A stretch of DNA of 35,223 nucleotides from positions 1 to 35,223 of IMG/VR virus record IMGVR_UViG_3300030333_003718; one strand, 5' to 3'. Each line of letters begins with the position of its first letter. Position 1 is the first letter of the stretch. Source of the DNA: a virus. The notes beneath the pieces are model-generated. The model was not told the origin of the DNA. It saw nothing but the letters and a program-made list of their open reading frames with translations, and ran no database searches. Of the stretch, positions 2,590 to 34,998 are shown one piece after another. The position numbers and the translations under genes were made by a program.

Positions 2590-5500
2590 CTACGTCGTTG
2601 AAGGGAAATCGCTACGGTAACTAGGTAGAATTTTACCGTTTACAAGCACTGACATCAATCGGAAATCAACATCGGGGACTACCACTTCCACTCCGGGGGA
2701 TAGTGTACCACCGATGACCCCATAGTTACCTGCCAAGTCAGAATCGGTGCCGAAGGACACCCATCGGTCAGACTCACCATCCTTCACAGATTGGACCTTG
2801 GTACCTTCCTGATCGACCACCCAATTCTCTGACTTGGTGGAGCCGATAGAGCCTTCCACCACAGTCCCCTTGAACCGGGAGTATGGGTCATAGGAGGAGT
2901 CGGGAGAGGAAACCTCTACGAAGGAGCAACCCAGAGAGTCAATCTGCTTGGTGCGGTGTAGGTCTTGAGATACCCGTCCAGTGCTTTCACTGGTTACAGG
3001 GAGGGGGTGCCCAATCCACCGGAAATAGACAGGTGACAAGGCCAAGATTGATCCGTCTGGGATGTTGGAGAAGATGCTATCCCCGAAGTAGAATTTGTCT
3101 CCACCCGCATCATTCTCGACCCCGATAACCTTGCTCTTTTTGCCGATAAACGAGGAATCTGAGGATTCGAGGCAATAGATGTAGGAACCAATCCACGGGT
3201 TACCCACAACATCTCCAGCATCAGTGGTGAAGGTAATGTCGATATTCGTGCTGGCAACCTGAACCCCGGAGGTCCACGGTTCCTCTACCACAAGGCTGTC
3301 TATGGTGGTGAGGAGTGTATCTCCGTGGCCATCCTGCATGGTGAGACGAGGGTTGGAGCCCCCGTCCGCCGTTCGCTTCTCCCGCTTGTAGTCAAGGATG
3401 AAGACCCGGGGGACTCCCGTTGCAGCGTTGGTACTAGAGAGTGGGGGATTCTGAAGGAACATAGCGCGCTCAACGAGGGCGGTCTTGAGGTCTGCCTCGG
3501 AGAGGTCGCCCTTGTCTTTACTCGCGGCTTCAGGCCACACACCCGTTCGGGTTTCTTTGAAGGTAGCGTCTTTGATCGTGGTGGTTCTGGAGGAGTTGAA
3601 CCACAGGACTTGGATCTCTTCGTTGTCCGGTGAGAGCAGGAACATGGCCGAAGAACCGGGGTCGTAAGAAAGGGAGCAGTTGGAAAGGACCGAAGCCCAG
3701 TCATCTGTGATGACCTTGTCGAAGGCCCGGACATCGTCGAGACGGCCTTGGGTACTTACCGTCTTTACGCCCCGCGTGGTAAGGAAGTAGATGAATGAAC
3801 CAATGGCCGCGACAGTTCTGCCGCTGATGGTCCCGAAGCCTTCGTGCATTTCCACGATCCGCATGAATGCGGAGCCTCCCCCGCCTTCCTTCTGGATGAA
3901 GTACATGCGGTCTCGGGAGAACCCGATCAACTTACCCGACACCGTAGCCATTGCGATGATTTCGTTGGTTGGCGTGTCGGGAATAAAGAAGTTCTCTACG
4001 GGGAACATCTCGGGTGAATAGTTGGTGAGGGAGGACCACCGGAGTTCACCCAGTCCTCGCTTGATCTCGTTAACTACGTCCTCTGTCGAGATGGGGGCAG
4101 GAGAGTTAGTGATATTTGAAACGAAGAGGGTGTTGTTGTAGAACTCCAACTCACCCCCATAGGGGACCTCCTCATCGTAGATCGGAGTCTGCCCATCGAA
4201 GGTGGGCTTGTACAGAAGGGCTTCGTCGGTAAGAGCGAAGGTGTAGAAGGACTGGTCCCGCACATCATTACCGTGGCCAACTCCCGAGTCGTCGTTGTCA
4301 TCCGTGAACAACTGGTGGTCCTTCAGATTAACGATGGCTTCGAGAGACAGAATGCTAGCCACCTGCGTCCCACCTGTGGTCTCTTGGGCAAGGGTGCGGT
4401 ACACATACATCCTGTCGAACTCACGAGGATCGTATGTTACGTCGATGGAGATATAGTGGGTTGGTACCTCCCGAGGGGCTTCCGATGTTTCTATAAACGT
4501 GTCGGGGATAGTGAACCGGCAAATATCAGAGAGACTACTTTGTCGGCCCGTGGTGGAGTCGTACAACATATACGCGACCCCATAGGTGTAAGGACCAAAC
4601 TTCTGGGCATTAGCGAGAATGTTCTCACCATTGGAAGTCCCGGGGACACCTGCCCCTGAAGATCCGATGTCCACGGGGTTATCGACTGACCACTCAGTTG
4701 TCATGCTCTCCATCTCTTGGAGATCTATGAGTAGTGGATTCACATTGAACTGGACAGTTCGATATGCGTAGTCATTTCGTTCCACAATATTTCCGCAGAT
4801 AGCACGAACAGTCCACTCGTACGTATAAGTTCCTGCACCCCAATTGTCATTGCTAAACGAATCTGTGATATTTGCAACAACTCGGTAGTAGTGAGTAGAG
4901 CCAGCATCGTTGACGGGGCCAAGATCCTCAACCACCACATCCAAGTTGTACTTGGCCCCCTTCTCAGGAGTGGGAGGAGCCGCAGGTGCAGTAGTTGTAC
5001 TACCGAAACTACTAGCGTAGACAAAGGGGACTTCACCCTCATCACCTGCAACAGCATTCACAACATGGACTTTGGACCCGTCAACGTAGACTCTCATCTT
5101 CGCAGTGCCGTGGCCGTTAGAACTTTCGACGATCTGTTTGAAGTTTGCTGCGGTATTTGCCGAAGTAGTAGAAGCCTCAAACTCTTTAAGTTCCGGGTTT
5201 GCTGTGTAATCGTTTTTGATCTTGTAGGTTATGCCGGTCCCGTCTTTGGAGGTCACTTTAACCGTTCCCCCATTGACACTGTTAAACGCAGAGGAATCAA
5301 ACTCAAACTCTGCGTAGGCACCACCGCCCCCCGTAAAGGCCATGGGGAGGAGGTCGGTCGAGAGAAGGCAGTTGTCGAAGTTCGCGGCGGTTGTGATCTG
5401 AGTCTGTCCGTCAGGTCCCCCCACTCCTTGGGTGATGGTGATCGTAGGTTCGGAAACCGCGACTGAGGACTTGCCGCCGGTGAAGACCACGGGGAAGGTG

Positions 5501-8226: not shown

Positions 8227-9196
8227 TCTTCTTCGCCTTAGTTCCCCCACTCTTAGGTTCGTTTTCGTACCACCCGAGGGTGTCGTAGTCCTTCTTCTTG
8301 TATTCCGACTCGTAGTGGATAGCGTCTTCGAGATCCTTGTGGGGGAAGACCTCTAGGGCACTATTTGGATTGCAATTATACACGGAGAGACCGTGTCCTT
8401 CAAAGTGTCCTTTCATGGCTTCGAACCTCTTTCCAAGGGCGTAGTAGGTCCGGTTGTTGCCCCTAATGGAGCCCTTGCTACGGTGCTGAGCGAAGGCGTA
8501 TCGCTTGGTGCGGCTCATATGGAAGTCGCAGCCCAAGAGGTAGATGTTGCGGATCCCGAGGACGTAGAGGATCTTGATCGCCGCTAGCATCACAGAACGG
8601 CAACTGTTGATCCCAAGAGAACAGGGCTTCTTGGCCGCTTGGCCCCAGTTGATGGAGGTCTCTGTCAAGTAAGTTTGGTGGTTGAACTGGGCGTTGCGGT
8701 GGAAGAGGAAGGTGTTTGGGGTATCACCAGCACGCATGTTGGTTGGGACCCAATCCTCAGGACCAGCCTTCCACCGGAGGGTTTTGTTCTTCAACTTGTG
8801 GGGAATGAACTTCATCACTTGGGGGTTCATCCAACCCGAGTAGAGGAACTTCTCCGGAGGGTCCACGCAGGTCCAGAGGTCTGGAGTGAAGACACTCCAA
8901 CTGTTATTGACCCCCATAGTGAGGGCACCACATTCAGCCAAAGGGTCAAGGTTCACACTTGCGAGAGACGGCCCACTCAAAAGGAGGAATGCACCCGTTC
9001 GACGGGGGCTCCAGAAGTGATTGATAAGGTTCATCGGCTCCATCAATCGGTTCACGAAGACCGGCTTCTTTGTGGGGTCGTGGGGGATTGCCTTGTTGGT
9101 GATGTTTCCGTAGTTAGTCCTCGCAGCCTCAAGGAGAGCCTTGGGGTCTTGGAGGGCCATGGCAGATACGTTGATCTTGTCGAAGTCGATAGCCAT
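8219..9196 (-). CDS. Putative glycosyltransferase, DUF115/Maf-like or GT42-like Rossmann enzyme
   Basis: A 325-residue protein. The core has a Rossmann-type opening LLLSGPSLASV (about 71-81), a strand-turn ending TMGVNNSW (93-100) and a second strand GIRNIYLLGCDFHM (214-227). GPSL followed by GVNN and then a hydrophobic strand ending G-x-D is the pattern of the DUF115 (MptE-like) group, which includes Maf flagellin glycosyltransferases, and of GT42 sialyltransferases such as CstII. The sugar donor and acceptor cannot be read from sequence. It is coupled by TGATG to the Ser-rich protein upstream and overlaps the Ser/Thr-rich nozzle-like gene downstream, so these may be its substrates. The C-terminus is Lys-rich. 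Alternatives are a pterin-type kinase or a host-surface modifying enzyme. Confidence 0.72.
   Translation of the reverse strand: MAIDFDKINVSAMALQDPKALLEAARTNYGNITNKAIPHDPTKKPVFVNRLMEPMNLINHFWSPRRTGAFLLLSGPSLASVNLDPLAECGALTMGVNNSWSVFTPDLWTCVDPPEKFLYSGWMNPQVMKFIPHKLKNKTLRWKAGPEDWVPTNMRAGDTPNTFLFHRNAQFNHQTYLTETSINWGQAAKKPCSLGINSCRSVMLAAIKILYVLGIRNIYLLGCDFHMSRTKRYAFAQHRSKGSIRGNNRTYYALGKRFEAMKGHFEGHGLSVYNCNPNSALEVFPHKDLEDAIHYESEYKKKDYDTLGWYENEPKSGGTKAKKNG
8243..8252 (-). repeat. GAGTGGGGGA dispersed motif
   Basis: Sense strand, in Ser-Gly-Gly codons near the end of the putative glycosyltransferase gene and 16 bases before the nozzle-like ATG. Confidence 0.8.
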
Positions 9197-12009: not shown

Positions 12010-12959
12010 CAGTCAAGGATCTGCCACCCGTGGCGGTTATCAACAGTCTGCTTGTCGAAGTGCTTGGGGATCCTGTTCTGCATGTATGAGAGGTTGTCTC
12101 CGATGGTCTTGATGGCGGACTTGTACTGGAGGACAAGAAACTGCATCTGCTTCTGAGAGATGTTCCGCATGGTGCCCAACTTGATCGCAGCCGACGCGGT
12201 GATGGCTTGCCAGAGAGATTGGAACCCTGCCGGAATCAACTCGAAGCGGAGATCATCTGTACCTCCTGCTTCGATATCTGCGGTGAACGCGGAGCGGACG
12301 GTTAGGGTTGAATCCCCTGACCCATCCTTAACGTCATAGGACGCAACCACCCGTTCTTCAACGAGGGTATTTGAGTCGTTCCAGAGCCGGAGGGTGGCAC
12401 CCGCGTAGGCGTTCTCCCGGAAGTCAAGAGCCCCAAGAGTGGGGGAAGGTGTAGTACTAGTGGCAACCGTCAGCACCTTACGGTCAGCGTCGAGGCGACC
12501 CGCCTTGGCGGCGGCGGAGCCATCGAAGTAACAGGCCCTGAAATCGCCGTTGGGGATGTAGAAGATGTCGAAGGTCTCTGCGTTCGCGGTTGGGAACGGC
12601 ATAATTGAGAGAAGATTGCCTTCGATGGACCACCCCTGCCCCCGAGGGTTGTAAAGGGAACGAGGGAGGGTTTCCTTGGTGACTCGTCCGTTGTCGTCAA
12701 CCTCTGCAACCCGGAGGATTTCTCCAATACTGGGGGGCAGTTGGTAGTATTGCTGGTCCTCTACGGTCGTTAGTTCGTGACGGAGGATGATGGGATTGTC
12801 ATACGTCATCGAGAGACGAGACAACACCTCCACCATGGAGGGGGAGACCAAGTGGTCCACCATGAAGTTGTTGGAGTATTTGGCATCTGCGGTAGGCTCG
12901 TCGAGGAATGCTCGAAGCCTCTCCAAGATGGTGTACAGCATTGATCCAGATGAGTGCAT
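12009..12959 (-). CDS. Tail adaptor / tail tubular protein A-like (gp11-like)
   Basis: A 316-residue protein with the layout of podovirus adaptor proteins. An N-terminal helical part (LYTILERLRAFLDEP) is followed by the beta segment PIILRHELTTVEDQQYYQLP, which matches the usual Tyr-x-Leu-Pro core, then a beta-rich insertion at about 130-235 and long C-terminal helices (SLWQAITASAAIKLG to the end). Such proteins form the ring under the portal that joins head to nozzle. Its place after portal and capsid and before the large tail proteins agrees. The ATG at 12959 has a weak ribosome site; an internal ATG at 12941 is possible. Confidence 0.75.
   Translation of the reverse strand: MHSSGSMLYTILERLRAFLDEPTADAKYSNNFMVDHLVSPSMVEVLSRLSMTYDNPIILRHELTTVEDQQYYQLPPSIGEILRVAEVDDNGRVTKETLPRSLYNPRGQGWSIEGNLLSIMPFPTANAETFDIFYIPNGDFRACYFDGSAAAKAGRLDADRKVLTVATSTTPSPTLGALDFRENAYAGATLRLWNDSNTLVEERVVASYDVKDGSGDSTLTVRSAFTADIEAGGTDDLRFELIPAGFQSLWQAITASAAIKLGTMRNISQKQMQFLVLQYKSAIKTIGDNLSYMQNRIPKHFDKQTVDNRHGWQILD
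12437..12446 (+). repeat. GAGTGGGGGA dispersed motif
   Basis: Antisense inside the adaptor gene, in Ser-Pro-Thr codons. Confidence 0.8.
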
Positions 12960-12962
12960 GGG

Positions 12963-13514
12963 TTACCCCGAGGTGATGATTCGGCCACTAGCCATTGAGG
13001 TGAGTTCTTCTTTCAACTGTTCGAGACTCTCTCCACCTTGCTGATCGCCAACGTAAGGACCACTCTCGATCATAGCAGCCATTTCGATGTCACCCATTCT
13101 ACGGTAGTACGCCGCAGTTTCCTGCCTCTTCTCCAAACTATCGTTACGCATGGAGTCCTTGATGGAAGCGGCTTTCTTGATCCGATCTCGAACCGCAGCA
13201 GCCTGCTCGTGGAAAGGCCGACAGCGTCGGATCAACCAATCCGTATCCATCCAACCCCCACGGTCTGGGGGGATGTCCATGGTGTGGAGTTCGGTTGCTA
13301 CTCCAATCCCCCACTCTTTGGGGTCGTAGACCCACCCGGCGAGGACAAACTTGCCCGTTAATTTGTGGCGATAGATGAAGAGTTCCGGGTGCTTTGTCAC
13401 TCGCCGGGCGAATCGGATCCATTCCCCGTCCGGAAGGAGTTCGTGGTTCTCATTGATGAGAAGCCCACTCTCCACTGCTGCGGCGATGGGGTCATATACG
13501 ATTTCCATTTCCAT
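12963..13514 (-). CDS. Unrecognised structural-block protein
   Basis: A 183-residue protein that I do not recognise. Residues 20-90 are compact and Trp-rich (EWIRF, GKFVLAGWVYDPKEWG), and residues 100-175 are helical and charged. GGAAGGAGC lies just before the ATG at 13514, a strong ribosome site, and the upstream stop is one base away. The Trp-rich first half resembles a small globular domain found in other podovirus head-tail regions by feel only; no motif fixes the function. Its place between the 572-residue protein and the adaptor suggests a virion or assembly role. Confidence 0.7.
   Translation of the reverse strand: MEMEIVYDPIAAAVESGLLINENHELLPDGEWIRFARRVTKHPELFIYRHKLTGKFVLAGWVYDPKEWGIGVATELHTMDIPPDRGGWMDTDWLIRRCRPFHEQAAAVRDRIKKAASIKDSMRNDSLEKRQETAAYYRRMGDIEMAAMIESGPYVGDQQGGESLEQLKEELTSMASGRIITSG
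13307..13316 (-). repeat. GAGTGGGGGA dispersed motif
   Basis: Sense, in Glu-Trp-Gly codons of the 183-residue gene. Confidence 0.8.
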
Positions 13515-13515: not shown

Positions 13516-15234
13516 CTACGCTCCTTCCGAAGTTCCCGCTGCTACTCCAATACCCAAAGCGGCAAGCAGGGCCGCGATTGCGGTGTCCTTGTGCTTGTAC
13601 GCGAATTGGGGGATAGACCGGCCCCTTGTCCTAATTGCTTCCATGAGTGCCCGGAATTGTTGAGCCTTGTTGAAAGCCATCTTTCCATGGTCTTTTGCTT
13701 TGGGGTTCGGTTGTCGTCCTACGGTGACAACCAAACGCTCACCAGCCTTGCCCCCGTATTCGGGGGGGAATCCAACTTGTCCGAGACCCTTCAAGCGAGG
13801 ATCACGGTACCTCTCAAGCCGCGTCTTGCCTGCTTCTTCAGCATCAATTTGAACTTGGCGTTGAGGGGGGATCTTAAAGTCCTTCAACTTCTCACCCGTT
13901 CGTTTCTCGTGAGCCTGTTTTTGTTTCTCTGAGGATCCTACCTTTCCAAACTCGCTCCGAACACTTTTCACATCTACGTTGACGCTGCCCACTCTAGCCG
14001 TGGGGTCTCGAACCACTTCAATGGGGGTTTCGTACAGAGTGTGTGCGACGTTTCCTCCTTCGGGGGTCAACTCAAGAGCGGTAGCCAGTTTGATGAGATC
14101 AGGATCCAAACCCCTACCCTTAGCCAACGACTGGTTGATGTGTGCCTTCAGTCTCTTCTTGGAGACCTTAGGGTCAGTCGGAACTGTTCTTTGCCCCACA
14201 CCCAAACTCACTGTCTTAGGCTTTGGCATCGTGTGGCCATGTTCCATGTCCGCAATGCCCATACGGGAAAAGTCTGTGGCGTGAGCCCTTGCTCGTCTCA
14301 GAAGTTCCAGTCGTCCACTGGGCTCCCTTCGACGGAGACGGTTCTCTTCTTCAATCATCGACTCCCCGAAAGTCTTCCAAGGTCTTGTCACTTCACCTGT
14401 TTGAGGGTTAACAACCTTTTGCCCCTTAACCCCCACGTTGGCCATCTTCTCCAGTTCACTTTCTTTGATGTCTACGCCAGTACCCGCTTCAGAGAGGAAT
14501 TTTCCCCCTTCTACAAAGACACCCTGCTCCGCTCCTCCCAAGGACAAAGTCATTGTTTGCCCAAGACGAGCAAGTGCATCCTCAACCTGCCCCCACCTAG
14601 GGCTACCAATTTGAGCCGGTGTAAAGCCTCTCACTGTTTTGGGGTATTTCCTCTTCAGTTCCGGTTCGATAACTGATTCATGAGCCGCAACGAGTTTCTG
14701 CACCTTTTCCCTTGGGGAAAGATTCGCTTCCTTGAAGACATCCCCCTTAAGTTCAAGACCTGCCTTTACCCATTTGGATGCCTTCTTGTTTTTAGCATCG
14801 CGGATAAATTTCCGCCATCCCTCAAGATCAGCAACGCCTTGCTTATGCCACCTCTTTAGGGTATTTGCAATGTACCCCGTACCCTTGATGTCTTTGGGGT
14901 CCCGAATGTTCCCCTTCATTGCGACCGCTTCAAGGAGTGTCCGGACTCGCGGGCCCACACCCGCATGTGCCTGACTCAACGCAACTGCCTCGTCTTGTGA
15001 AGCGATTGCGGCTTTTACTTGTTCCAAAAGTTCTGCGGATCTTGGGGGGCCGATGGGCCCCGTCCCGGTGGACTTGAGTGGGGGGATCAGATTCGATCCT
15101 GTCCCCCCTTCCATCATGTGCATACTTACAGAGGGGTATGGTCTAGCCGCTACGTCTACTGGATGGATATCAGTCCCCACCCCTTCACGGTAGGGTTGAA
15201 GTCCGGCAAGTAACATTTCTAGTTGGCTAGCCAT
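13516..15234 (-). CDS. Unrecognised 572-residue basic protein with C-terminal hydrophobic helix
   Basis: The protein is rich in Lys, Arg, Pro and Gly. It has no catalytic motif I can name. The last ~25 residues (DTAIAALLAALGIGVAAGTS) form one hydrophobic, Gly/Ala-rich helix, as in proteins that touch membrane or pack in an oligomeric core. The ATG at 15234 is the first gene after the capsid terminator. Middle segments are helical and charged. A minor virion protein, an internal core protein or a polyvalent packaged protein are all possible; none is supported by a motif. Confidence 0.7.
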   Translation of the reverse strand: MASQLEMLLAGLQPYREGVGTDIHPVDVAARPYPSVSMHMMEGGTGSNLIPPLKSTGTGPIGPPRSAELLEQVKAAIASQDEAVALSQAHAGVGPRVRTLLEAVAMKGNIRDPKDIKGTGYIANTLKRWHKQGVADLEGWRKFIRDAKNKKASKWVKAGLELKGDVFKEANLSPREKVQKLVAAHESVIEPELKRKYPKTVRGFTPAQIGSPRWGQVEDALARLGQTMTLSLGGAEQGVFVEGGKFLSEAGTGVDIKESELEKMANVGVKGQKVVNPQTGEVTRPWKTFGESMIEEENRLRRREPSGRLELLRRARAHATDFSRMGIADMEHGHTMPKPKTVSLGVGQRTVPTDPKVSKKRLKAHINQSLAKGRGLDPDLIKLATALELTPEGGNVAHTLYETPIEVVRDPTARVGSVNVDVKSVRSEFGKVGSSEKQKQAHEKRTGEKLKDFKIPPQRQVQIDAEEAGKTRLERYRDPRLKGLGQVGFPPEYGGKAGERLVVTVGRQPNPKAKDHGKMAFNKAQQFRALMEAIRTRGRSIPQFAYKHKDTAIAALLAALGIGVAAGTSEGA

Positions 15235-16962: not shown

Positions 16963-17874
16963 TCAGAGTTTGGATTGATCGCCTGTCGAGAGATCCTCCG
17001 CGAGACGACTCAAAGCATCGACGTTGTACTCCCTTGCTTTGGAGTCCATCGTGCCCATGTTGTCACCATCTGCGAATTGAGGAGCCTCTACAGGCTTCTT
17101 GTTAGCGAAAAACGAGTCCAGACCCGATGCTGTTTCCGGTGCACGCCCAATTTTGTTGGGGTCTCCGATTACCGTCGAGATTCTGTTGTAGATGTTATCA
17201 GCGGCTTTCGTTGCTTCATCAGAAAACCACGACAAATTGAAGTTTTCCCCACGACTTTTTCTAGATCGAACATTGTCCATAAGACTCCGCTCGATCTGGC
17301 TCCGCAAACTCGAACGTCGTTCTGCGTCATCTGAGTTGGGGTTCATCTCTGAACCCTTGTCGAGAAGCGTTCGGATCTTGGGGTTTGACTCCATCACTCG
17401 ATCAAGTGTCTCGTTGAGATTCTGACGGAGGAAGTCAGCGTTCATACGACGCTGGTTGTTTTCCAAACTCTCAAGGCGTTGCTTGTTTTCGTTCGAGAGA
17501 GGATCGGGGGTGGTCATTGGTGCTTCCTCCTGTGGTTGTTCGCCCTTCAGGGACGTAACGTATTCGTCAATCTGATCGGGCTGATACCCTTCAGCATTCA
17601 TGAGGTACCGAACCGCTGCTTCCTTGTCCGTATCCGATGCACCTTGCTGCATCAACACAGAAGCATGTTGGTTGTACTCATGGATGCCAGATGCCTGTTT
17701 AGCCACATCAACCAACTGGCCAACCGTGACCTCGACACCATCAACTTGGACTGTCGCATCCAAGTTGATATTCGGGCTAGGGGCTGGCGCAGGGGTGGGG
17801 GGAGCCTCTTGAGTGGGGGCATTATCCACAGGAGCGACGGGGGTGGGATCCGGGGCCGGAGTTTCTTCAGACAT
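16963..17874 (-). CDS. Scaffold-like capsid assembly protein
   Basis: A 303-residue acidic protein. It opens with a Pro/Ala/Glu-rich disordered stretch (about 1-40), has a small domain at about 40-110, and then a long charged helix containing NKQRLESLENNQRRMNADFL (about 127-146). The end is again polar and low in structure. This order, acidic and helical just upstream of the capsid gene and downstream of the portal, is that of scaffolding proteins of T7-like phages. GAAGGAGAC precedes the ATG at 17874. Identification rests on position and composition. Confidence 0.78.
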   Translation of the reverse strand: MSEETPAPDPTPVAPVDNAPTQEAPPTPAPAPSPNINLDATVQVDGVEVTVGQLVDVAKQASGIHEYNQHASVLMQQGASDTDKEAAVRYLMNAEGYQPDQIDEYVTSLKGEQPQEEAPMTTPDPLSNENKQRLESLENNQRRMNADFLRQNLNETLDRVMESNPKIRTLLDKGSEMNPNSDDAERRSSLRSQIERSLMDNVRSRKSRGENFNLSWFSDEATKAADNIYNRISTVIGDPNKIGRAPETASGLDSFFANKKPVEAPQFADGDNMGTMDSKAREYNVDALSRLAEDLSTGDQSKL

Positions 17875-17886: not shown

Positions 17887-19968
17887 TCAACGAGGGGTTG
17901 GCGTTGGAGGTGCGGCCCCTTGTGGCCGTCCTCCTCCTTGGGGTTTTGGTTGGGGCTTTCCCGATCCTCCGGGAGACCCCATCTGCTGGGCTTTCATTTG
18001 TGCTTTGCCCACCATGTTGTTTGCTTGTCTCTGTGCATCCATAAGCACAGCCATATCATCTGGGGATGGTACTGCATTTGGCAGAGTAAGACCAAGGCTC
18101 TGCATCAGAAACTCTCGGTACTTCATGAACTCATCCTGCACCTCAGGAGAGGCCATGGACATTGAAGGACTCGTCATAAACGAAGTCAGGACCCTCATTT
18201 GGAACGAGGGACGAGCCGTATGGGGAGTCAAGATAATCTGCCCGGGATCCTCACCGTTTCCATAAAGAAGCAAGCAGTTCTTGATAACCGACTCATATGC
18301 GGCTTTCTCTTCGTCCATCCAGATCGCTAGATCAAGACCTTCCTTCAACGCGAAGAGTTTCAATCCGTCCGGGTCTGTAAGCCCCTTCTCCAACCACTCC
18401 AATGCTTCCTTCTTCCTCGCCACGAGTGAACGAGGATTCACTTGTTGGATAGTAACTTGGAGGTTGGTGAGGGTTGGGACGGGGTTGGTTTCGAAAGAAA
18501 CGGATCCCTCCACCGGATCAATAATCGCACCCGCAAGATCCAGAGTCATATGGTTCACGGGGATGGGTCGTGGTGAGAAAGCCATAGTCCTTGCTGCGGC
18601 AGAGAGAACAGCCCTGTAACAAGAACCGAAAGCCCGCTCCATACCCCGCGACGGATTTGTCATCGCCTTATTGGTTTCTTCCTCAAGGAAGTTCAAGCCA
18701 GCAGCGGAGTCAATGCGGCCTTTCTCCTCGATGAGATCCCTCACCGGAGTAAGACCATCCATCAACTGTTTGGCATATGCAGCAGTTCGACCGGGGACAT
18801 CCCCCGCGTTGTGGGGCGTGATCGAGAACGGTCGGAAGTTATCTCCAACCGGATCCGGTTCGAAGGGAACAACCCGGAGACCACGCCCCACGTCGCGGAG
18901 CATAGCACGCTCGTTGAACTGTCCTTGAGGCATCACAAGAACACCATAACGGTCGATGTCCCGGATGTTGTTGAAGAGGGACTTGAGGAGACGTTCCATC
19001 TCACGATTGATAGAGAACAGAAGATCAAAGAGACCAGCACCATGGAAGGTGCCATTCTCCATGAAGCGTGCAAACCCAATGGGGCAATAAGTCTCGATCC
19101 CCTCCAGATCCATGTCCTCAAGAACATAGTCACCTGAGGTGACCACGTACCTTGTCACAAGTTCCCCCACTCCAAATGTCCAGACCTCACGGATCTTTAC
19201 AACACCCATGGACTCGGGAACACGGGACGGCGCGCCGGGACCTCCATTGTTGTCTTGATAGTCAAAGGCTCCCTCCTCCGCAGCGTCAGCAGTTTCGTCG
19301 ATGTGTTCACCAACCTGCTGCTCCCAGTATTCCATCTTCTCAAGATTCTGCATGACCTTCCGGCCAAACCGTTCCTTGAGGAATTCCAGTGGGACCGAAC
19401 GCTGACGCATCAAGCCACTCAGTTTGGTGTAGTCCACACCAAGGGAGGGGAAGGGGAACAACTCACGAGGGTGAACCACCTCGATGTCGGCAGTGAGGCC
19501 GATGGAAGGAGTATCCTTCAAGTGTCCTGCTAGGCCACAACAACCAAGGGTGGTGAAGATGTGGGCGAACTCTGTGGCAATCTTGTCAACCTGATCGCTA
19601 CTTACGAGGGAGTCCACGAGAATCTGGGCTACAGACCGTTCGCGGATACCACTAAGGTTGCTGCCTTCCCTTAGGATCTTGGGTCGAAGATCCATGGAGG
19701 AGAGCCGGGCAGATACTTTGTCGATGGCTCGAAGGAGTTCCGTTGACTGGAATTCCATGTTGCCTTCTTCATCTAAGAAGTGAGGCCGGAGAGCACCGGC
19801 CTCGGGATCGAATACGTCGAAGCGTCGGGCACCATTGAGGTAGTACCACGCCAGAAGCCACATAGTTCGACGGTAAGAGAGACGAGACTCCTCACGGTCA
19901 GCGTGCTGGTCGATGATCCTAGCAAGGGCTTCTTTATTCTTCGGCAGTTTGATCGTGTCGCTTGCCAT
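17887..19968 (-). CDS. Portal protein
   Basis: A 693-residue protein of the size of podovirus portals. It forms the twelve-fold ring through which DNA enters and leaves. Seen: an N-terminal region with RRTMWLLAWYYLNGARRFDVF (as separate parts), a central region with FSINREMERLLKSLFNNIRD and the stem-like helix region, and a C-terminal Pro/Gly/Gln-rich tail (about 655-693). It sits between terminase and scaffold/capsid genes, as expected. The ATG at 19968 overlaps the preceding gene by 35 bases; AAGAG is the only ribosome-like site close to it. Confidence 0.85.
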   Translation of the reverse strand: MASDTIKLPKNKEALARIIDQHADREESRLSYRRTMWLLAWYYLNGARRFDVFDPEAGALRPHFLDEEGNMEFQSTELLRAIDKVSARLSSMDLRPKILREGSNLSGIRERSVAQILVDSLVSSDQVDKIATEFAHIFTTLGCCGLAGHLKDTPSIGLTADIEVVHPRELFPFPSLGVDYTKLSGLMRQRSVPLEFLKERFGRKVMQNLEKMEYWEQQVGEHIDETADAAEEGAFDYQDNNGGPGAPSRVPESMGVVKIREVWTFGVGELVTRYVVTSGDYVLEDMDLEGIETYCPIGFARFMENGTFHGAGLFDLLFSINREMERLLKSLFNNIRDIDRYGVLVMPQGQFNERAMLRDVGRGLRVVPFEPDPVGDNFRPFSITPHNAGDVPGRTAAYAKQLMDGLTPVRDLIEEKGRIDSAAGLNFLEEETNKAMTNPSRGMERAFGSCYRAVLSAAARTMAFSPRPIPVNHMTLDLAGAIIDPVEGSVSFETNPVPTLTNLQVTIQQVNPRSLVARKKEALEWLEKGLTDPDGLKLFALKEGLDLAIWMDEEKAAYESVIKNCLLLYGNGEDPGQIILTPHTARPSFQMRVLTSFMTSPSMSMASPEVQDEFMKYREFLMQSLGLTLPNAVPSPDDMAVLMDAQRQANNMVGKAQMKAQQMGSPGGSGKPQPKPQGGGRPQGAAPPTPTPR
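19163..19172 (-). repeat. GAGTGGGGGA dispersed motif
   Basis: Sense, in Gly-Val-Gly codons of the portal gene, a frame different from the copy at 20522. Confidence 0.8.
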
Positions 19969-20239: not shown

Positions 20240-22160
20240 CTGTCGAACCTCCTTCATGTCGATCAAGTGCCTCGATGATATCAGCCGCACTGACTTTACT
20301 CATGTCTAATCGGTGGGCATATGGGTTACCTTCTTCATCGAGAAGGTTCCCCTTCTTGATTTCCTCAAGAGGGTCCTTCGCCCTTTGCTCCTCCATCTGG
20401 AGAGACTTAAGACGGCCCTTGACCACGAATTGAGACATAGAGACACAGTCGATCTCGTCATCATGCTGGAGTCCGCCGTCCTTGGCTTCGGGATTGAACT
20501 GCTCGAACTGGTCGAATAACCTCCCCCACTCACCCCTATGTCGGTAAGCGAGGGGCATCTTGATCTTCCCGTGCTCGGTACGCATGAGGAGGGTGGCGAT
20601 CTTGGAGGCCTTGTCGAGTTGGCCCGGGTTGAGTTTCTTAATTCCGGGAAGGTGAGTTACACCCGCCATGTCTGAGGCCCGGGTCCGGACAATGGAGTCG
20701 AGGGCGTGAAAGAGGCCGATGCCCTGCTTGATCGTTTCGGGGTGCATGGTGGGGCACTTCCAACGGTCAGCGAGTTTGAAGGACTCTTGGACGAGCATTT
20801 GCTCTTGGCACTGCCGGGACCAAATATCGAGGACAAAGAGTTCGTTTTGGGAATTGATCCCCATCAGACACGCGACTTTGTAGTCGGAGTCCTTAGTAGC
20901 CGTGTAGGAAGTATCCAGTGTCATAAAGAGACGGGTACGTTTGAGGAAGTCTTCCATAGGGATGCGTTGGAGTTCCCCCTCGGAGTACCAACACATGAGG
21001 GCCTTAGATTCCCGGGGGCTATTCTCGTAGACCTCGTCAACCTTTTCGAGCCACCACCCATGGGACTCCTTAGTGAGTGGGGGAAAGTACGAGTCTTCAG
21101 ATTGTCCGGGGGAAGCCATGTACTCCGCAAGGAAGTTGGCGGAGCCGATGATTTCACGGATCTCTTCGAGCGAGACGCGGTCAGAGTACTCAGGGTTGTC
21201 CTTCTTGAACTGCTTAGTGGGGGGCCACATTTCGGGCCAACAAGAGACAAGGTTACCGTCAGAGTCTTCGTGGGCTGCCCGGACAATCATGCGACCCCAC
21301 ATGTTGAAGCGGGGATCGACGGCTACGTTCTCACCTTCAGCGTTCTGTTCAGTTTGGAGAGCGTGCCATGCGTAGTGCCGACGAGACACGAAAGTAGCAA
21401 GCCAATCAACACCGCACCCACGACGCATAACCATAGGCAGAACAATCTTAAACAGAAGATCGTCCATATAGCCACGAATGATAGACATCGAAGTGGATGC
21501 ACGGGGATCGTATTCAGGGTCATCTAGAACATACCTACGAGGGCGACCACCACGTTGACGAGATTCGGCTGAGATGCAACGGAGCCAAGAACCATTCTTG
21601 AGGTGCATCAGTTCCGTTCCGAACGGGGCCTCGCCCCTTCGGGGGGCGAGCCGCCCGTCCGGGAAGTCGGGACCGAAATCATTGTTGATACGGAGGTTGT
21701 TGATGAACTGATCTTTGATCGCTTGGCCAGTCCCCTTAGCGTTGTCGTTGGTAGAGGTGGCATAGAGAATCGAGAACGCGGAGCGGGAGAGCATCCGGAA
21801 GAGGATGGACTTACGAACGAGGAACGACTTCGCAGAACCACGCGGGGCAATCACAATGTTCCGGGGGGTGGTGGCCCACAAGCGTTGAATGTCGTAGTGG
21901 AAGTCTGGGGTTCGGAGAGGGTCATCGTCATAGAACATCGGGTCGAAGTCGATGTCGTGGTTGGCGGTGAGATAGTACATGTCGAAGAACCGCATCCCGG
22001 CGACAAACGCTTCCGCGATATCGACCGGGCTACGGTTCTGTGAAGTCCACAATCTGCACGCATTTGTGCGTGCTTGCCTCTGTCCTTCCTCCGACAACTC
22101 CTCGTAATCTGTCGGCAAGGGGTAGAGAGGATTGTTCTTCCTCTCAATCCACTTAGCCAT
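20220..22160 (-). CDS. terL: Terminase large subunit
   Basis: A 646-residue DNA-packaging motor. The ATPase half has a Walker A-like APRGSAKS (105-112) and a Walker B-like YVLDDPE (210-216). The nuclease half has the first acidic residue in LDTSYTATKDSDYKV (Asp416, then Asp424 and Asp426) and the late acidic cluster HDDEID (566-571), which would bind two metal ions. Length and order fit podovirus terminases. I chose the ATG at 22160 (MAKWIER), which overlaps the upstream stop by 8 bases; further in-frame ATGs at 22172 and 22205 lie deeper in the preceding gene. The portal follows after one small gene. Confidence 0.95.
   Translation of the reverse strand: MAKWIERKNNPLYPLPTDYEELSEEGQRQARTNACRLWTSQNRSPVDIAEAFVAGMRFFDMYYLTANHDIDFDPMFYDDDPLRTPDFHYDIQRLWATTPRNIVIAPRGSAKSFLVRKSILFRMLSRSAFSILYATSTNDNAKGTGQAIKDQFINNLRINNDFGPDFPDGRLAPRRGEAPFGTELMHLKNGSWLRCISAESRQRGGRPRRYVLDDPEYDPRASTSMSIIRGYMDDLLFKIVLPMVMRRGCGVDWLATFVSRRHYAWHALQTEQNAEGENVAVDPRFNMWGRMIVRAAHEDSDGNLVSCWPEMWPPTKQFKKDNPEYSDRVSLEEIREIIGSANFLAEYMASPGQSEDSYFPPLTKESHGWWLEKVDEVYENSPRESKALMCWYSEGELQRIPMEDFLKRTRLFMTLDTSYTATKDSDYKVACLMGINSQNELFVLDIWSRQCQEQMLVQESFKLADRWKCPTMHPETIKQGIGLFHALDSIVRTRASDMAGVTHLPGIKKLNPGQLDKASKIATLLMRTEHGKIKMPLAYRHRGEWGRLFDQFEQFNPEAKDGGLQHDDEIDCVSMSQFVVKGRLKSLQMEEQRAKDPLEEIKKGNLLDEEGNPYAHRLDMSKVSAADIIEALDRHEGGSTGGQSRI
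20522..20531 (-). repeat. GAGTGGGGGA dispersed motif
   Basis: Sense, in Glu-Trp-Gly codons of the terminase gene. Confidence 0.8.
21075..21084 (+). repeat. GAGTGGGGGA dispersed motif
   Basis: Antisense in the terminase gene, read there as Pro-Pro-Leu. Confidence 0.8.
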
Positions 22161-25427: not shown

Positions 25428-26849
25428 ATGGAATTGGTTGTCGGAACGTCCGCGAGGCCCATGGGTTCACCCGAACCTATGAAGGTTGCCCGGGACTTGG
25501 TAAATCACTCATTCTGCACTCCCAACCGGAAAGGAGGGCTTTGGTTCTACAACGGATCATACTATCAATGGTACGGAAATCAATGGCATCTTAGGGACGA
25601 GGTGTGGTTGGAGGATACGTTGTGGGTGCTGTTGGAGGATGCGTATTACACAGAGAATACCATCAACGGTCCTGAGTTGAGGCGTATGAAGCCCAACCGG
25701 GGGAAGATTGAAAACGTGATGCGGGCTATTTCTGCCTGCACAAGGGTCCCCCACTCAAGTGTTCCGTTGTGGCTGAATGGGGACGGCCCGTTCGATGCAA
25801 CGAGAGCGTTGGCGTTTCAGGATGTGGTGTTTGACGCGAAGACGGGGAAGACGGTTGAGCGGAATGAGGATTGGTTTGATCCGGTGACGTTGCCTGTGGT
25901 GTATGACCCGGAGGCGGAGTGTCCTCGTTGGATGCAGTGCTTGGAGGAATGGGGTGGAGGAGACCCAACGTGGGTTGATTTGTTACAGAGATGGATGGGC
26001 TATTGCCTTTTGCCCCACAGGAGATTTGCCAAGTGGATGCTGATGTACGGGAAAGTGCGAGCAGGGAAGGGAACGATTGCGAGGATTCTCGAAAGGCTTA
26101 TTGGCAGGGAGTGCTACATGGGTACCTCGCTGGACGATCTGGCTGGAGACTTCGGATTGGACGGCTTGGAGAAGAGCAGGGTTATCTGTGTGAGCGAAGT
26201 GAGCGAGTTGGACGGGAAGGACGGAGAGCGTTGTGTTCGGGTGTTGAAGAACATTGTGGGACAGGACCCGATCACCGTGAATATCAAGTTTCAGAGGCAG
26301 ATGAGGAATATCGTCGTGAACGCTGCACCGATGATGCAGGCGAACGAGATTCCGATGTTGCCCAATAAGGGGAGGGGCTTGAGTAGCAAGATGTTGCTAT
26401 TGCCGTTTGATCGGACTTTTGAGGGGAAGGAAGATCCGGACCTACTGGAGAAGTTGGAAGAGGAGATGGTGGGGATTGCGGCTTGGGCTGCGGAGGGGGC
26501 ACGGAAGGTGGAGTCGTGTAGCGAGAGTTCGAGACGGTTTCCGATGCCGAGCAGGGCGGAGGAGGCGGTGAAGTTGTATCACATCCAGAACAACCCGTTT
26601 GACCACTTCTTGGAGGAGAGGTTCTTGAGGAGTGAGACCGGGTTTGTGGCGACGGACATGTTGTGGTGGCAGTGGAAGGATTGGCTGAAAGCGAACGGGA
26701 TCAGGAATATTCAGGTTGCTAGGAATCAGATTGCGATGAAGATCGAGTCGGGTAGCAGTTGGGGCGTGTATAGGCATCGGCCCGGTGCCAACAGTAAGCG
26801 TGGGCTCAGAGGTTTGAGTCTACGGAAGAATTTCGAGGATGTTTCCTGA
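25428..26849 (+). CDS. D5-like superfamily 3 helicase (replicative helicase, primase part absent)
   Basis: A 473-residue protein. About 35-75 resembles the D5 N-terminal region (WFYNGSYYQWYGNQWHL). The SF3 ATPase core has Walker A GKVRAGKGT (208-216), Walker B RVICVSEV (251-258) and motif C IVVNAAPM with the sensor Asn298. The family unwinds DNA at phage and plasmid origins, usually as a hexamer, often fused to a primase; no primase domain is present here, so priming must come from elsewhere. AGGAGG lies six bases before the ATG. It is the first gene of the rightward block, and a structured, gene-free segment that could be its origin follows soon after. Confidence 0.88.
   Translation: MELVVGTSARPMGSPEPMKVARDLVNHSFCTPNRKGGLWFYNGSYYQWYGNQWHLRDEVWLEDTLWVLLEDAYYTENTINGPELRRMKPNRGKIENVMRAISACTRVPHSSVPLWLNGDGPFDATRALAFQDVVFDAKTGKTVERNEDWFDPVTLPVVYDPEAECPRWMQCLEEWGGGDPTWVDLLQRWMGYCLLPHRRFAKWMLMYGKVRAGKGTIARILERLIGRECYMGTSLDDLAGDFGLDGLEKSRVICVSEVSELDGKDGERCVRVLKNIVGQDPITVNIKFQRQMRNIVVNAAPMMQANEIPMLPNKGRGLSSKMLLLPFDRTFEGKEDPDLLEKLEEEMVGIAAWAAEGARKVESCSESSRRFPMPSRAEEAVKLYHIQNNPFDHFLEERFLRSETGFVATDMLWWQWKDWLKANGIRNIQVARNQIAMKIESGSSWGVYRHRPGANSKRGLRGLSLRKNFEDVS
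25747..25756 (-). repeat. GAGTGGGGGA dispersed motif
   Basis: Antisense in the helicase gene, read there as Val-Pro-His-Ser. Confidence 0.8.
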
Positions 26850-27115: not shown

Positions 27116-27125
27116 GAGTGGGGGA
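27116..27125 (+). repeat. GAGTGGGGGA dispersed motif, intergenic
   Basis: Four bases after a stop codon, at the left edge of the structured gene-free gap. Confidence 0.85.
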
Positions 27126-28436: not shown

Positions 28437-28439
28437 GTG

Positions 28440-28721
28440 ATGACTGAGGTTGTAAATCTGAGAAATAGCACGTTTGATGTGTATATCGGGCGTGCTGGAC
28501 GCGGTGAGGACGGTTATTTCGGTAATCCATTCCCGATCAGTAAAGGCGGACGCGATGAGTGCATTGCACGCTACCGTGAATGGTTTGAGTTTCGCATCGA
28601 GAATGATGAGGAGTTCAAAGCACGCGTATTGGAGTTGAAAGGCAAGCGTTTGGGGTGTTTCTGCAAGCCTCAAGCATGTCATGGTGATGTTATTGCAGAG
28701 TGGCTGGAGAACAACGGATGA
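28440..28721 (+). CDS. DUF4326 family protein
   Basis: A 93-residue protein matching the DUF4326 pattern: an N-terminal YIGRAGRG, the GNPFPI motif, a central R-x-x-CIARYREWFEFR helix, and the end LKGKRLGCFCKPQACHGDV with its conserved Cys and His. The family is common in phages and bacteria and its reaction is not known; the Cys/His set could bind a metal. AAGGAG lies seven bases before the ATG at 28440; a GTG at 28437 is in frame but less well placed. The stop overlaps the next start as ATGA. Confidence 0.88.
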   Translation: MTEVVNLRNSTFDVYIGRAGRGEDGYFGNPFPISKGGRDECIARYREWFEFRIENDEEFKARVLELKGKRLGCFCKPQACHGDVIAEWLENNG

Positions 28722-28921
28722 CCGACAAACGCACACTCATGGAGAAGATTTACCCCTTCTCCTGTCCCAACAAGTGGCTTGAAGCAAAGCGTGAGGAACA
28801 CCGCACCAAGACACTCAGCATCGCTGATGACCCTGTCTTGAACCCCAAAACCAGTCCCCCACTCGTCATTCTTGGGCAGGGAGACTACAAAATCATCATC
28901 ACAGAGGACGATCTCAAATGA
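28718..28921 (+). CDS. Unrecognised 67-residue protein
   Basis: It starts by ATGA overlap with the DUF4326 gene and ends by the same overlap with the next gene, so translation is probably coupled. Residues 10-35 are basic (PNKWLEAKREEHRTKT), residues 37-52 are Pro-rich and the end is GDYKIIITEDDLK, a likely beta hairpin. No family was recognised. One copy of the 10-mer lies in its coding part. Confidence 0.65.
   Translation: MTDKRTLMEKIYPFSCPNKWLEAKREEHRTKTLSIADDPVLNPKTSPPLVILGQGDYKIIITEDDLK
28855..28864 (-). repeat. GAGTGGGGGA dispersed motif
   Basis: Antisense in the 67-residue gene, read as Ser-Pro-Pro-Leu. Confidence 0.8.
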
Positions 28922-30459: not shown

Positions 30460-30727
30460 ACTGGAAACCTACTACAAGGGCAAAACGCCCGATGAGATCG
30501 CCAGCCTCCCGTTCGGTATGGTGTTCCTTGACTTTGTCATGGCCCGTACCGAAGCAGGTTACCCTGAAGATCTCCACCATGCCCCAGAGATCGAACGAAT
30601 CTTGGGGAGTGGGGGACCCGAACTTGAAAGGCAATGGAAGCAATTGCCATTCATCCAAGAAGAGGTGTCACCAAACGCCAACACAGACACTCCAGTGTGG
30701 CTGTGGATCATGTTGAACCCGGTATGA
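30452..30727 (+). CDS. Unrecognised 91-residue protein
   Basis: An open frame extends upstream, but GAGGAGG lies just before the ATG at 30452, which I take as the start. The protein is acidic and helical, with DEIASLPFGMVFLDFVM near residue 20 and a WLWIMLNPV end that is hydrophobic but too short for a membrane span. No family was recognised. It carries a copy of the 10-mer in its coding part. Confidence 0.65.
   Translation: MSELETYYKGKTPDEIASLPFGMVFLDFVMARTEAGYPEDLHHAPEIERILGSGGPELERQWKQLPFIQEEVSPNANTDTPVWLWIMLNPV
30607..30616 (+). repeat. GAGTGGGGGA dispersed motif
   Basis: Sense in the 91-residue gene, read as Gly-Ser-Gly-Gly. Confidence 0.8.
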
Positions 30728-31259: not shown

Positions 31260-31269
31260 TCCCCCACTC
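31260..31269 (-). repeat. GAGTGGGGGA dispersed motif, intergenic
   Basis: Between a terminator and the ribosome site of the TTG-started gene. Confidence 0.85.
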
Positions 31270-31693: not shown

Positions 31694-31695
31694 CC

Positions 31696-32707: not shown

Positions 32708-32895
32708 ACAAGTACCTCATCACGTACTTGGTTACCGCGTCCGAGGCAATTGGTCGGTTCCAAGAGGACTTTCACGGAGTCACATGGGCTGAAAACCCTG
32801 AAGCCTATGAGTGGAATCAATCACTCACCAAGATCAGAGAGATCATGGACAACGTGGCTACTCGAATGGCGAAAGCCGCGAAAGAAAAGGCATGA
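32704..32895 (+). CDS. Unrecognised 63-residue helical protein
   Basis: It starts by ATGA overlap with the previous gene. The sequence predicts two helices around a Trp-rich turn (FHGVTWAENPEAYEW) with a basic Ala-rich end MAKAAKEKA. It is the last gene before the strong terminator. No family was recognised. Confidence 0.65.
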   Translation: MNKYLITYLVTASEAIGRFQEDFHGVTWAENPEAYEWNQSLTKIREIMDNVATRMAKAAKEKA

Positions 32896-32907
32896 CCTTC
32901 TCTTCTG

Positions 32908-32958
32908 CCCCCCGCCCCGCTAGATTCGTCTAGGTCTGGGGCGGGGGGTTTTCTTTTT
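32908..32958 (+). terminator. Very strong terminator with nested UUCG hairpin
   Basis: CCCCCCGCCCC (32908-32918) pairs perfectly with GGGGCGGGGGG (32938-32948); inside, CTAGA-TTCG-TCTAG adds five pairs. TTTTCTTTTTT follows. The last codons and stop of the opposite-strand gene lie in this element. Confidence 0.95.
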
Positions 32959-33172
32959 TGTTGCATTTACGACAAGGCTTGTACGGAAGCAATTTGTTGA
33001 GAGCATCGCGTCTCTTCTTGCAACCCCCGCAAGATTTGACTCGACCACCACTCACACGGTGTATAATCTTCTCAACAGTGTCCCCCACTCCCTTAGAGGG
33101 AGCAGAGGGTCGCTCCTTCCAAGCCTCTCCGGAGGATTCGTTCTTCTTGTTTACACCACGAGCGTGACCCAT
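32930..33172 (-). CDS. Small zinc-knuckle protein, lone minus-strand gene of the right block
   Basis: An 80-residue protein. GVGDTVEKIIHRVSGGRVKS leads to CGGCKKRRDALNKLLP and then CRKCNKK: two CxxC pairs about 15 residues apart, a zinc-ribbon pattern with the phrase C-G-G-C-x-x-R-R-x-x-LN that I know from many small phage proteins. AGGGAG lies seven bases before the ATG at 33172. The frame is open further upstream, but that part is antisense to another gene. Its reading direction opposes its neighbours, its start is one base from the divergent gene, and its stop lies inside a terminator stem. Role unknown, perhaps nucleic-acid binding. Confidence 0.78.
   Translation of the reverse strand: MGHARGVNKKNESSGEAWKERPSAPSKGVGDTVEKIIHRVSGGRVKSCGGCKKRRDALNKLLPYKPCRKCNKKENPPPQT
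33081..33090 (-). repeat. GAGTGGGGGA dispersed motif
   Basis: Sense in the lone minus-strand gene, in Gly-Val-Gly codons. Confidence 0.8.
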
Positions 33173-33173
33173 T

Positions 33174-33509
33174 ATGAATCTCCCTGATAACGAGCATTTC
33201 AAGTCTCTCTTCAAGTTGATTGTACAGTCATGTGAAGACGAGAAACTAGCCATTATGCGAGTAAAACACCGATCAACAGGTGTTATCCATATGGCCATCG
33301 TGTCTGTCTCTCTGGAGAAAGTAGAAGATGACTCCTTCTCAGTAGAGGTAACCCCTCTTGCTCTCCTTCTCTCCCCGGAGATGGCCAAATCAATCGACCC
33401 CCTTATCGACTTCGACCACAGGGACGAATGGGACATCCAATTCGATGATACCCCCATCGAACTCGACGATAGAAACCATTGGAGGCCACCAACCAAGGGA
33501 CTCCTATGA
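33174..33509 (+). CDS. Unrecognised 111-residue acidic protein
   Basis: The first in-frame ATG is at 33174, directly after an in-frame stop; no ribosome site stands close by (GGAGG is about 40 bases away), so the start is uncertain. A strand-rich core (GVIHMAIVSVSLEKVEDDSF; VEVTPLALLLSP) is followed by an acidic end (DFDHRDEWDIQFDD). No family was recognised. It ends by ATGA with the next gene. Confidence 0.65.
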   Translation: MNLPDNEHFKSLFKLIVQSCEDEKLAIMRVKHRSTGVIHMAIVSVSLEKVEDDSFSVEVTPLALLLSPEMAKSIDPLIDFDHRDEWDIQFDDTPIELDDRNHWRPPTKGLL

Positions 33510-33934
33510 AAGTTGAGTGGGAATTCGACGACATTGACGACCACGAAAACGTGTGCTGGGAGTACACGACAGATGGACTTCTCGCCTACGAAGAAAGTGG
33601 ATGGGATCAGGTCGATGATTCCATGTACACCCGAATGCATCCTAAGGTTAAAGGTCTTATCCAAGCATCCAAAGATGTTCATTTAGCCCAAATCAACCCA
33701 ACCAATATGATCGAGTGGAAATACCGCCTTGATTGTTTGTTTGATGCAGGTAAGTACTACCTCACATCAGACACAGATGAAGGCGATATTCCCATCCGAT
33801 ATCGCTTTAGCGACCTCAAGACTTATGAGGGCCTCAAGATCTCCATTACAGCATGGACTAAAGAGAAGTTCGATTCTTCTATCCGAGAGGTTCGGATGAA
33901 GCGAATCATCTCAAGCAACGACTTCGAGATTTGA
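33506..33934 (+). CDS. Unrecognised 142-residue acidic protein
   Basis: It starts by ATGA; a longer open frame begins at 33479 but has no ribosome site, and CAAGGGA before 33506 is modest. The N-terminal 30 residues are acidic and Trp-rich (VEWEFDDIDDHENVCWEY). Helices and strands alternate after that, with a mixed-charge C-terminus. No catalytic pattern was seen and no family was recognised. Confidence 0.66.
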   Translation: MKVEWEFDDIDDHENVCWEYTTDGLLAYEESGWDQVDDSMYTRMHPKVKGLIQASKDVHLAQINPTNMIEWKYRLDCLFDAGKYYLTSDTDEGDIPIRYRFSDLKTYEGLKISITAWTKEKFDSSIREVRMKRIISSNDFEI

Positions 33935-33941
33935 GGCAACA

Positions 33942-34274
33942 ATGGAAACAAACGAATGTCCAATCTGTCAGACTAAAGAGTTAGCCCAAGTTCAGCACGA
34001 CTTGAATGAGTGCAAGAAGCGGGGGAAGACAAAAGATCGACAGATCAAGAAACTCAATAAGCAAGTCTTTATCTTGACCATGATTGCTATCGGTATTGGA
34101 GCGATCTTTGGAAAAGAAACGCTGGACTCAATTACAGAATGGCTTGGTTCAATCAAGTCGTTCAAGTCTAGTGTTCAGGATCTCAGTGGGTTTATTGTCC
34201 CAGCACCGGGATCATTAGGACTCTTGGCTATTGCCTTTCTTGTATGTAGACCGACAAGAAAACGAACAAACTAA
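33942..34274 (+). CDS. Two-span membrane protein with PEP-CTERM-like C-terminus
   Basis: A 110-residue protein. CPIC near residue 6 and a basic coiled-coil-like stretch (about 11-40) precede a first span (VFILTMIAIGIGAIFG, 42-57). After an outer loop come VPAPG (86-90), a second hydrophobic segment (LGLLAIAFLVC, 92-102) and basic RPTRKR (103-108). The last three parts copy the order of PEP-CTERM sorting signals (VPxPx, helix, Arg cluster). But no N-terminal signal peptide is present. A two-span holin with both ends inside is the simpler reading. A GAGGCAA ribosome-like site lies before the ATG. Confidence 0.7.
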   Translation: METNECPICQTKELAQVQHDLNECKKRGKTKDRQIKKLNKQVFILTMIAIGIGAIFGKETLDSITEWLGSIKSFKSSVQDLSGFIVPAPGSLGLLAIAFLVCRPTRKRTN

Positions 34275-34276
34275 TT

Positions 34277-34286
34277 GAGTGGGGGA
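34277..34286 (+). repeat. GAGTGGGGGA dispersed motif, intergenic
   Basis: In the short gap before the glycosylase gene, directly ahead of its AAGGAGG. Confidence 0.85.
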
Positions 34287-34299
34287 TTAAGGAGGAACG

Positions 34300-34998
34300 A
34301 TGAACCTACCTGTATTAGGTAGCAATCCTAATTGCACTGACTGCGAACTGCATGAGTTCCCCCACTCAGTGTGTATCCCTACGCACCACTACCCGAGGTC
34401 GTTGGACCTACCGGGTAATCCCCTGATCTTCTTTATCGGCCAGAATCCCGGCTACTACGAGGATCAGAAGAATGAACCATTCGTCGGGAAGTCGGGGGAT
34501 CTCGTCAAGCGTGCGTATATTGGCGGTACTCTCCTCCACGAGCGTGCCTCCGTCTGGTTGGGCAATGGAGTTCGTTGCCATACTGAAGCAAACGAAACAC
34601 CCAAACCAAAGCACTACCGATCTTGTCAACACTATTTACTTGATGACCTCCAGTACCTATTCTCCGCAAATCACGATGAGGGTCAAGTAAAAATCGTCGT
34701 AACCCTTGGCGCACCAGCAACTACCGCGTTCTACAAGAACATCGTAGAGGCTGGAACCACCTCCCTCTCTAAAGCATTCATGATGAATGGGATGGAGTAT
34801 GAGTTCCAACTTACTGGTAACACATCCACCCCTTTCCGTCTCTTCTCGACCTACCATCCCGCAGCAGTGTTGAGGAACAACAACCTCATCAACAGCGTTC
34901 ATTCGCATATGCAGATGGTTTCGGATTGCCTCGATGGTACTATGGCAACCCCATCCGACCCAATCATCGTACCGACAAGGAGCCCATACAATGGCTGA
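34300..34998 (+). CDS. udg: Uracil-DNA glycosylase, family 4-like with Fe-S cysteines
   Basis: A 232-residue enzyme expected to cut uracil from DNA. Four Cys in the family 4 arrangement (Cys12, Cys15, Cys93, Cys109) would hold a 4Fe-4S cluster. Motif 1 reads FIGQNPGYYED (45-55) with the following PFVGKSGDLV; the middle has GNGVRCHTEANETPKPKHYRSC; the end has TYHPAAVLRN. Motif 1 has Gln-Asn where GE(A/G)PG is usual, so subfamily is unclear. AAGGAGG lies six bases before the ATG, and the 10-mer GAGTGGGGGA stands just before that. Repair, or protection of a genome with or without uracil, cannot be told apart here. It overlaps the next gene by 8 bases. Confidence 0.9.
   Translation: MNLPVLGSNPNCTDCELHEFPHSVCIPTHHYPRSLDLPGNPLIFFIGQNPGYYEDQKNEPFVGKSGDLVKRAYIGGTLLHERASVWLGNGVRCHTEANETPKPKHYRSCQHYLLDDLQYLFSANHDEGQVKIVVTLGAPATTAFYKNIVEAGTTSLSKAFMMNGMEYEFQLTGNTSTPFRLFSTYHPAAVLRNNNLINSVHSHMQMVSDCLDGTMATPSDPIIVPTRSPYNG
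34358..34367 (-). repeat. GAGTGGGGGA dispersed motif
   Basis: Antisense in the glycosylase gene (Phe-Pro-His-Ser), only 72 bases from the previous copy and in the opposite sense. Confidence 0.8.

Follow-up and report, generated by a model that had tools for sequence, protein, structure and literature searches.

A clade-specific DNA word evenly spaced on each strand in a family of uncultured bacterial viruses and its possible role as a start signal for DNA synthesis

The window (the whole stretch of DNA analysed, 35,223 bases, IMG/VR virus record IMGVR_UViG_3300030333_003718) is a fragment of a genome from an uncultured tailed-phage family. It encodes a terminase large subunit, a gene taken as portal, a D5-like SF3 helicase and a uracil-DNA-glycosylase (UDG)-like protein. 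Scattered among these genes are 15 exact copies of the 10-mer GAGTGGGGGA, three sites sharing its first nine bases and three further sites with the core AGTGGGGG. All features are listed in Table 1.

Table 1 Copies of the word and genes in the 35,223-base window
Position	Strand	Feature	Remark
1187..1196	-	core-only site TAGTGGGGGA	
1890..1899	-	core-only site AAGTGGGGGA	
3439..3448	+	GAGTGGGGGA site	
5417..5426	-	near-exact site GAGTGGGGGG	
8219-9196	-	gene in the late gene block	protein matches a PHROG annotated as alpha-2,3-sialyltransferase
8243..8252	-	GAGTGGGGGA site	
12437..12446	+	GAGTGGGGGA site	
13307..13316	-	GAGTGGGGGA site	
15076..15085	+	near-exact site GAGTGGGGGG	
17811..17820	+	near-exact site GAGTGGGGGC	
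17887-19968		gene taken as portal	
19163..19172	-	GAGTGGGGGA site	in the gene taken as portal
20522..20531	-	GAGTGGGGGA site	in terminase large subunit gene
21075..21084	+	GAGTGGGGGA site	antisense in terminase gene
21215..21224	+	core-only site TAGTGGGGGG	
25428..26849	+	SF3 D5-like helicase gene (473 aa)	without a primase domain; the replication gene used to find the family
25747..25756	-	GAGTGGGGGA site	antisense in helicase gene; also present at the matching place in relative G002/G003 by interpolation of the alignment
27116..27125	+	GAGTGGGGGA site	
28437-28721	+	DUF4326-domain protein	unknown function
28855..28864	-	GAGTGGGGGA site	
30607..30616	+	GAGTGGGGGA site	
31260..31269	-	GAGTGGGGGA site	
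33081..33090	-	GAGTGGGGGA site	
34277..34286	+	GAGTGGGGGA site	just upstream of the UDG-like gene
34300..34998	+	UDG-like gene	in relatives the PolA - tandem HTH - ERCC4 nuclease operon lies beyond it, outside this fragment
34358..34367	-	GAGTGGGGGA site	in UDG-like gene

An earlier note, made from the sequence alone, had claimed that this 10-mer is scattered far above chance, and this observation is correct. All 15 exact and three nine-base sites were found at the coordinates and strands that it gave. Dinucleotide shuffles of the window gave a mean of 0.14 copies (maximum of 1) and a third-order Markov model gave 0.17. The word is the top 8-, 9- and 10-mer of the window, and the next 10-mers either overlap it or have only 4-5 copies. 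Thus, neither of two outcomes that had been named in advance as grounds for dismissing the word, a background model predicting about 15 copies or other unrelated 10-mers at equal density, was observed, and chance from codon or dinucleotide use was rejected. The flanks carry little further conservation in this phage. The note had also counted three intergenic sites, which we did not check site by site, and had seen no orientation bias relative to transcription, which holds.

When the terminase and helicase were used as queries, an initial set of relatives (loci L001-L008) was obtained, and a helicase alignment then extended the family to about 37 members; in total about 40 relatives were gathered. 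No cultured phage among 50,697 matched the terminase of the window or the portal of the relative G024 (G numbers denote genome records), and PolA and the helicase gave only generic matches. The same helicase alignment found no relative in 84,980 GTDB genomes. Members of about 49-56 kb (G001, G023, G024, G031, G032, G035, G037, G041, G042, G045, G046 and G053) belong to an apparently undescribed phage family. In several of them early genes continue across the contig ends, suggesting circular permutation.

The full records were read and the top k-mer of each was determined without assuming the motif. Nearly every genome has one dominant G-rich asymmetric word, a clade-specific version of one word (CAGTGGGGGT, GAGTGGGGG, TAGTGGGGAA, AGCGGGGAA, TTCTGGGGGA, CCTTGAGTGGGGG), with roughly 10 to 40 copies per near-complete genome. 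Beside the 15 copies of GAGTGGGGGA in the window, examples include CAGTGGGGGT in G035 (27 against 0.10 expected) and G040 (23 against 0.03), GAGTGGGGG in G023 and G031 (28 against 0.5), TAGTGGGGAA in G045 (11 against 0.08), AGCGGGGAA in G024 (18 against 0.38) and TTTCTGGGGG in G001 (9 against 0.15). In G001 (L020-L022) the palindrome CTTTTAAAAG is also over-represented (8 against 0.95, both strands counted). G046 has a weaker, less certain version, and short records such as G003 and G043 are weak. The more distant members G053/G054 (helicase 32 %, PolA 34 % identity) carry CCTTGAGTGGGGG in over 20 copies, against 0.2-0.3 for its 10-mers, while still more distant helicase relatives (L058-L067) show no comparable word. 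When a tree was drawn from four proteins, the versions fell into clades.

Conservation was then examined in aligned DNA of the relatives. The 7-base core is kept exactly in 48, 56, 79 and 85 % of cases over rising identity bands, against 12, 16, 24 and 36 % for 7-mers of the same composition. Shared ancestry alone was therefore rejected as the explanation of the sites, as conservation far exceeds these controls and the versions differ by clade. The note had proposed asking whether positions or only density are kept between relatives. Against its closest relative G002 (about 70 % DNA identity), the window keeps one site at the matching place by coordinate interpolation (25747-) while most others have moved, whereas the density and a clade-specific version of the word are kept throughout the family.

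The sites are evenly spaced on each strand separately. Taking each strand alone, the coefficient of variation (CV) of the gaps is 0.45-0.65 in most genomes, against about 0.9 for random placement. On 13 less redundant genomes Fisher's P is 1.6e-14, although the genomes are related and these P values are optimistic. When strand labels were permuted at fixed positions, the mean per-strand CV rose from 0.586 to 0.745 +- 0.036, with 0 of 2000 shuffles as low. In the window itself the two strands gave CVs of 0.55 (P 0.03) and 0.63 (P 0.17), so the pattern is a family result and only suggestive in the window alone. Same-strand pairs occur at 0.06x below 100 bp, about 0.4x at 100-750 bp and 0.65-0.75x to 2 kb. 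Opposite-strand pairs are not generally depleted, except for a dip at 750-1000 bp (0.56x) that we cannot explain. Close opposite pairs are mostly divergent (78 of 103 below 500 bp before de-duplication; by homology cluster, about 10 purely divergent against 2 purely convergent by our count). Two records (G033 and G006) were not oriented in these counts.

Across the family the sites favour the late-coding strand by 363:209, or about 65 %. The bias has the same strand sense in late genes (109:71) and in early genes coded on the other strand (60:25), so it does not follow transcription. The GC skew at four-fold sites, averaged over the late and early arms, is positive on that same strand in most near-complete genomes. 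Both suggest a process that crosses the genome in one main direction, such as unidirectional replication, although fork direction is only inferred from skew. Sites are not concentrated between genes, as 210 of 237 lie in coding DNA against 220.7 expected.

To see whether the word occurs elsewhere, 2.9 million viral contigs were scanned for divergent pairs. Of the 42 stretches found, every record with clear enrichment shares genes of this family and the unrelated ones have chance-level counts. A search of viral contigs for same-strand close pairs gave only isolated pairs, at chance-level counts. The same kind of divergent-pair scan of GTDB genomes (84,980 species) with the CAGTGGGGGT version found no genome with scattered enrichment; these paired scans are limited to pairs 90-120 bases apart and to the versions searched. 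The one strongly enriched genome, a Coriobacteriales MAG (JAISGJ01; G078, L173-L174 and L177-L188), carries CAGTGGGGGT 238 times against 7 for the reversed word, often in inverted pairs with near-fixed spacing and in short tandem arrays, and looks like an unrelated repeat element. Gracilibacillus orientalis (G080, L176) carries 22 copies of CAGTGGGGGT against 0 of the reversed word, several as inverted pairs 14 bp apart.

Near-complete relatives encode PolA, an ERCC4-type nuclease, a PD-(D/E)XK exonuclease, a Sak4-like annealing protein and in many cases UDG. Profiles of Prim-Pol, Toprim_3, T7-type zinc-ribbon primase and tyrosine integrase found nothing in 12 near-complete genomes, with working controls. 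The predicted structure of the window's helicase resembles SaPI5 Rep and poxvirus D5/E5 helicase regions. A primase domain in the N-terminus of PolA was considered, but in our reading its conserved motifs are those of a 3'-5' exonuclease. PolA is directly followed by a 90-115 aa protein with two helix-turn-helix (HTH) domains and then by the adjacent or overlapping ERCC4 gene. The model of the HTH protein is confident (pLDDT 90) and consists of two trihelical domains, of which the best, weak match is the bipartite Tc3 transposase DNA-binding domain. A scan with this protein found records that share genes of this family wherever checked. It was not detected in G053/G054 (a profile search of G053 found none), although these carry the word. 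Its first recognition helix differs by clade as the word does, but both follow the same tree and their agreement is not independent evidence.

The word is thus probably a phage-encoded, strand-read signal of a polar whole-genome process. The analysis itself establishes the enrichment, the clade-specific versions in nearly all members, the conservation above controls, the even spacing on each strand independently, the global strand bias and the lack of scattered enrichment found outside the family; that the process is replication, and which protein reads the word, we infer. Our best guess, held tentatively and at somewhat less than even likelihood, is that the sites are distributed, strand-specific starts of DNA synthesis, with one every 2 to 5 kb or so on each strand. 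In this view density, evenness, independence of the strands, bias and the missing primase are explained together: the phages encode a helicase and a family A polymerase with a proofreading domain but no primase that we could recognise, so new strands would probably be started at these sites, as Okazaki fragments would be. The even coverage of each strand is as expected for primase recognition sites. However, there is no replication experiment, starts of primer synthesis were not mapped, and the absence of profile matches leaves undecided whether a cognate primase is encoded, as a novel, diverged, PolA-based or host primase is not excluded. The leading candidate reader is the tandem HTH protein, which would mark the site and direct either priming by PolA, as the small protein MP does for the A-family polymerase CCPol of SCCmec (PMC7581432), or, less likely, nicking by the ERCC4 protein. 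It is a weakness of this model that an HTH protein normally reads double-stranded DNA whereas primases read single strands, that the intact-looking exonuclease domain of PolA is unusual for a priming enzyme, and that the protein missing from G053/G054 may not be the reader. A bolder reading, which we consider doubtful but not excluded, is that the family replicates without a conventional primase and uses a long, self-defined word, evenly distributed on each strand and co-evolving with a small phage DNA-binding protein, to place the starts of its DNA strands, as a replication start code written into its coding sequence.

The interpretation offered in the earlier note, which listed a primase or helicase site, a stoperator, a Chi-like site or a modification site, is partly supported. 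A functional, selected phage signal is strongly supported, and a primase-type site fits best but is not demonstrated. Site-specific nicking, in which the HTH protein guides the ERCC4-type nuclease or another nickase to cut one strand, with the 3'-OH extended by PolA or the nicks persisting in virion DNA as in T5, phiKMV-like and tf-like phages, is not ruled out but seems unlikely. It has the closest published pattern: in tf and about 60 relatives a 9-bp asymmetric motif marks nicks, lies in coding DNA in proportion to coding density and is kept across the group (PMC3517423, PMC11780129). However, those motifs lie on one strand only, and here both strands carry sites. Opposite-strand pairs occur only 15-37 bp apart, which stable nicks would turn into breaks, and coverage every 2-5 kb is not needed for nick-primed strand displacement; no data on nicks at the sites were examined. 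Among cultured phages only a Halorubrum virus has a detectable homologue of the ERCC4 protein. A Chi-like signal, read in one orientation by a phage or host nuclease that enters at DNA ends, is likewise unlikely but not ruled out. The word is G-rich, asymmetric and spread over the genome with a strand bias as expected if ends are exposed on one side, and the exonuclease and Sak4-like protein would fit. Against this, a host-wide Chi or uptake word is disfavoured by the GTDB scan, although with the host unknown and one version searched the scan does not settle whether the host chromosome is enriched. Incomplete recognition, as for Chi, would also favour extra nearby sites rather than same-strand repulsion.

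Operators or stoperators of a two-domain HTH repressor, as in Cluster A mycobacteriophages, are very unlikely, even though the sites are asymmetric and similar in number, a monomeric two-domain reader is known (PMC9283540) and a tandem HTH protein is encoded here. Stoperators lie in short intergenic spaces and follow transcription direction (PMC9283540), and the sites show neither of these two defining features. That no tyrosine integrase was found in 12 near-complete genomes and no relative in GTDB genomes also argues against a temperate phage with an immunity repressor, but serine integrases were not searched for and this point is left undecided. A packaging, DNA-condensation or modification mark with no role in replication is also unlikely. 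It is not excluded for a phage-only word, modification was not tested, and the strand bias could reflect unidirectional packaging. However, such a mark does not by itself predict even spacing on each strand independently, nor same-strand repulsion without general opposite-strand repulsion.

These results show that a phage family can impose a genome-wide, strand-resolved spacing code on its own coding DNA and rewrite that code between clades. If the sites are starts of DNA synthesis, they would reveal an unrecognised way to prime replication and let lagging-strand start positions be read directly from sequence. The per-strand spacing test can be applied to other phages, including those with the unexplained nick motifs.

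Among known systems, mycobacteriophage stoperators share with this word the presence of more than twenty asymmetric sites per genome and a possible two-domain HTH reader, but differ in location and in alignment with transcription. Chi sites are also G-rich, asymmetric, strand-read and polar. However, Chi is enriched in the host chromosome, where no enriched host was found here, and known Chi sites are 5-8 bp against 9-13 bp for this word. Primase recognition sites are strand-specific, template-read sequences used with a helicase plus polymerase module, such as the template GTG required by pRN1 primase (PMC8076596), GTGG or TTTGGTTA required by NrS-1 PrimPol (PMC8718748), and the CCPol-MP system of SCCmec; most versions of the present word contain GTGG. 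Known sites are short (2-5 nt) or, for the 8-nt NrS-1 word, only two per genome (PMC7102993), so that NrS-1 is a mechanistic but not a distributional precedent for a 9-13 nt word distributed genome-wide. The nick motifs of tf/LUZ24-like, phiKMV-like and T5 phages (TACT/RTGMC in tf) are likewise asymmetric words of about 9 bp, enriched and of unknown function, whereas the word described here lies on both strands, is evenly spaced on each strand and itself switches between clades.
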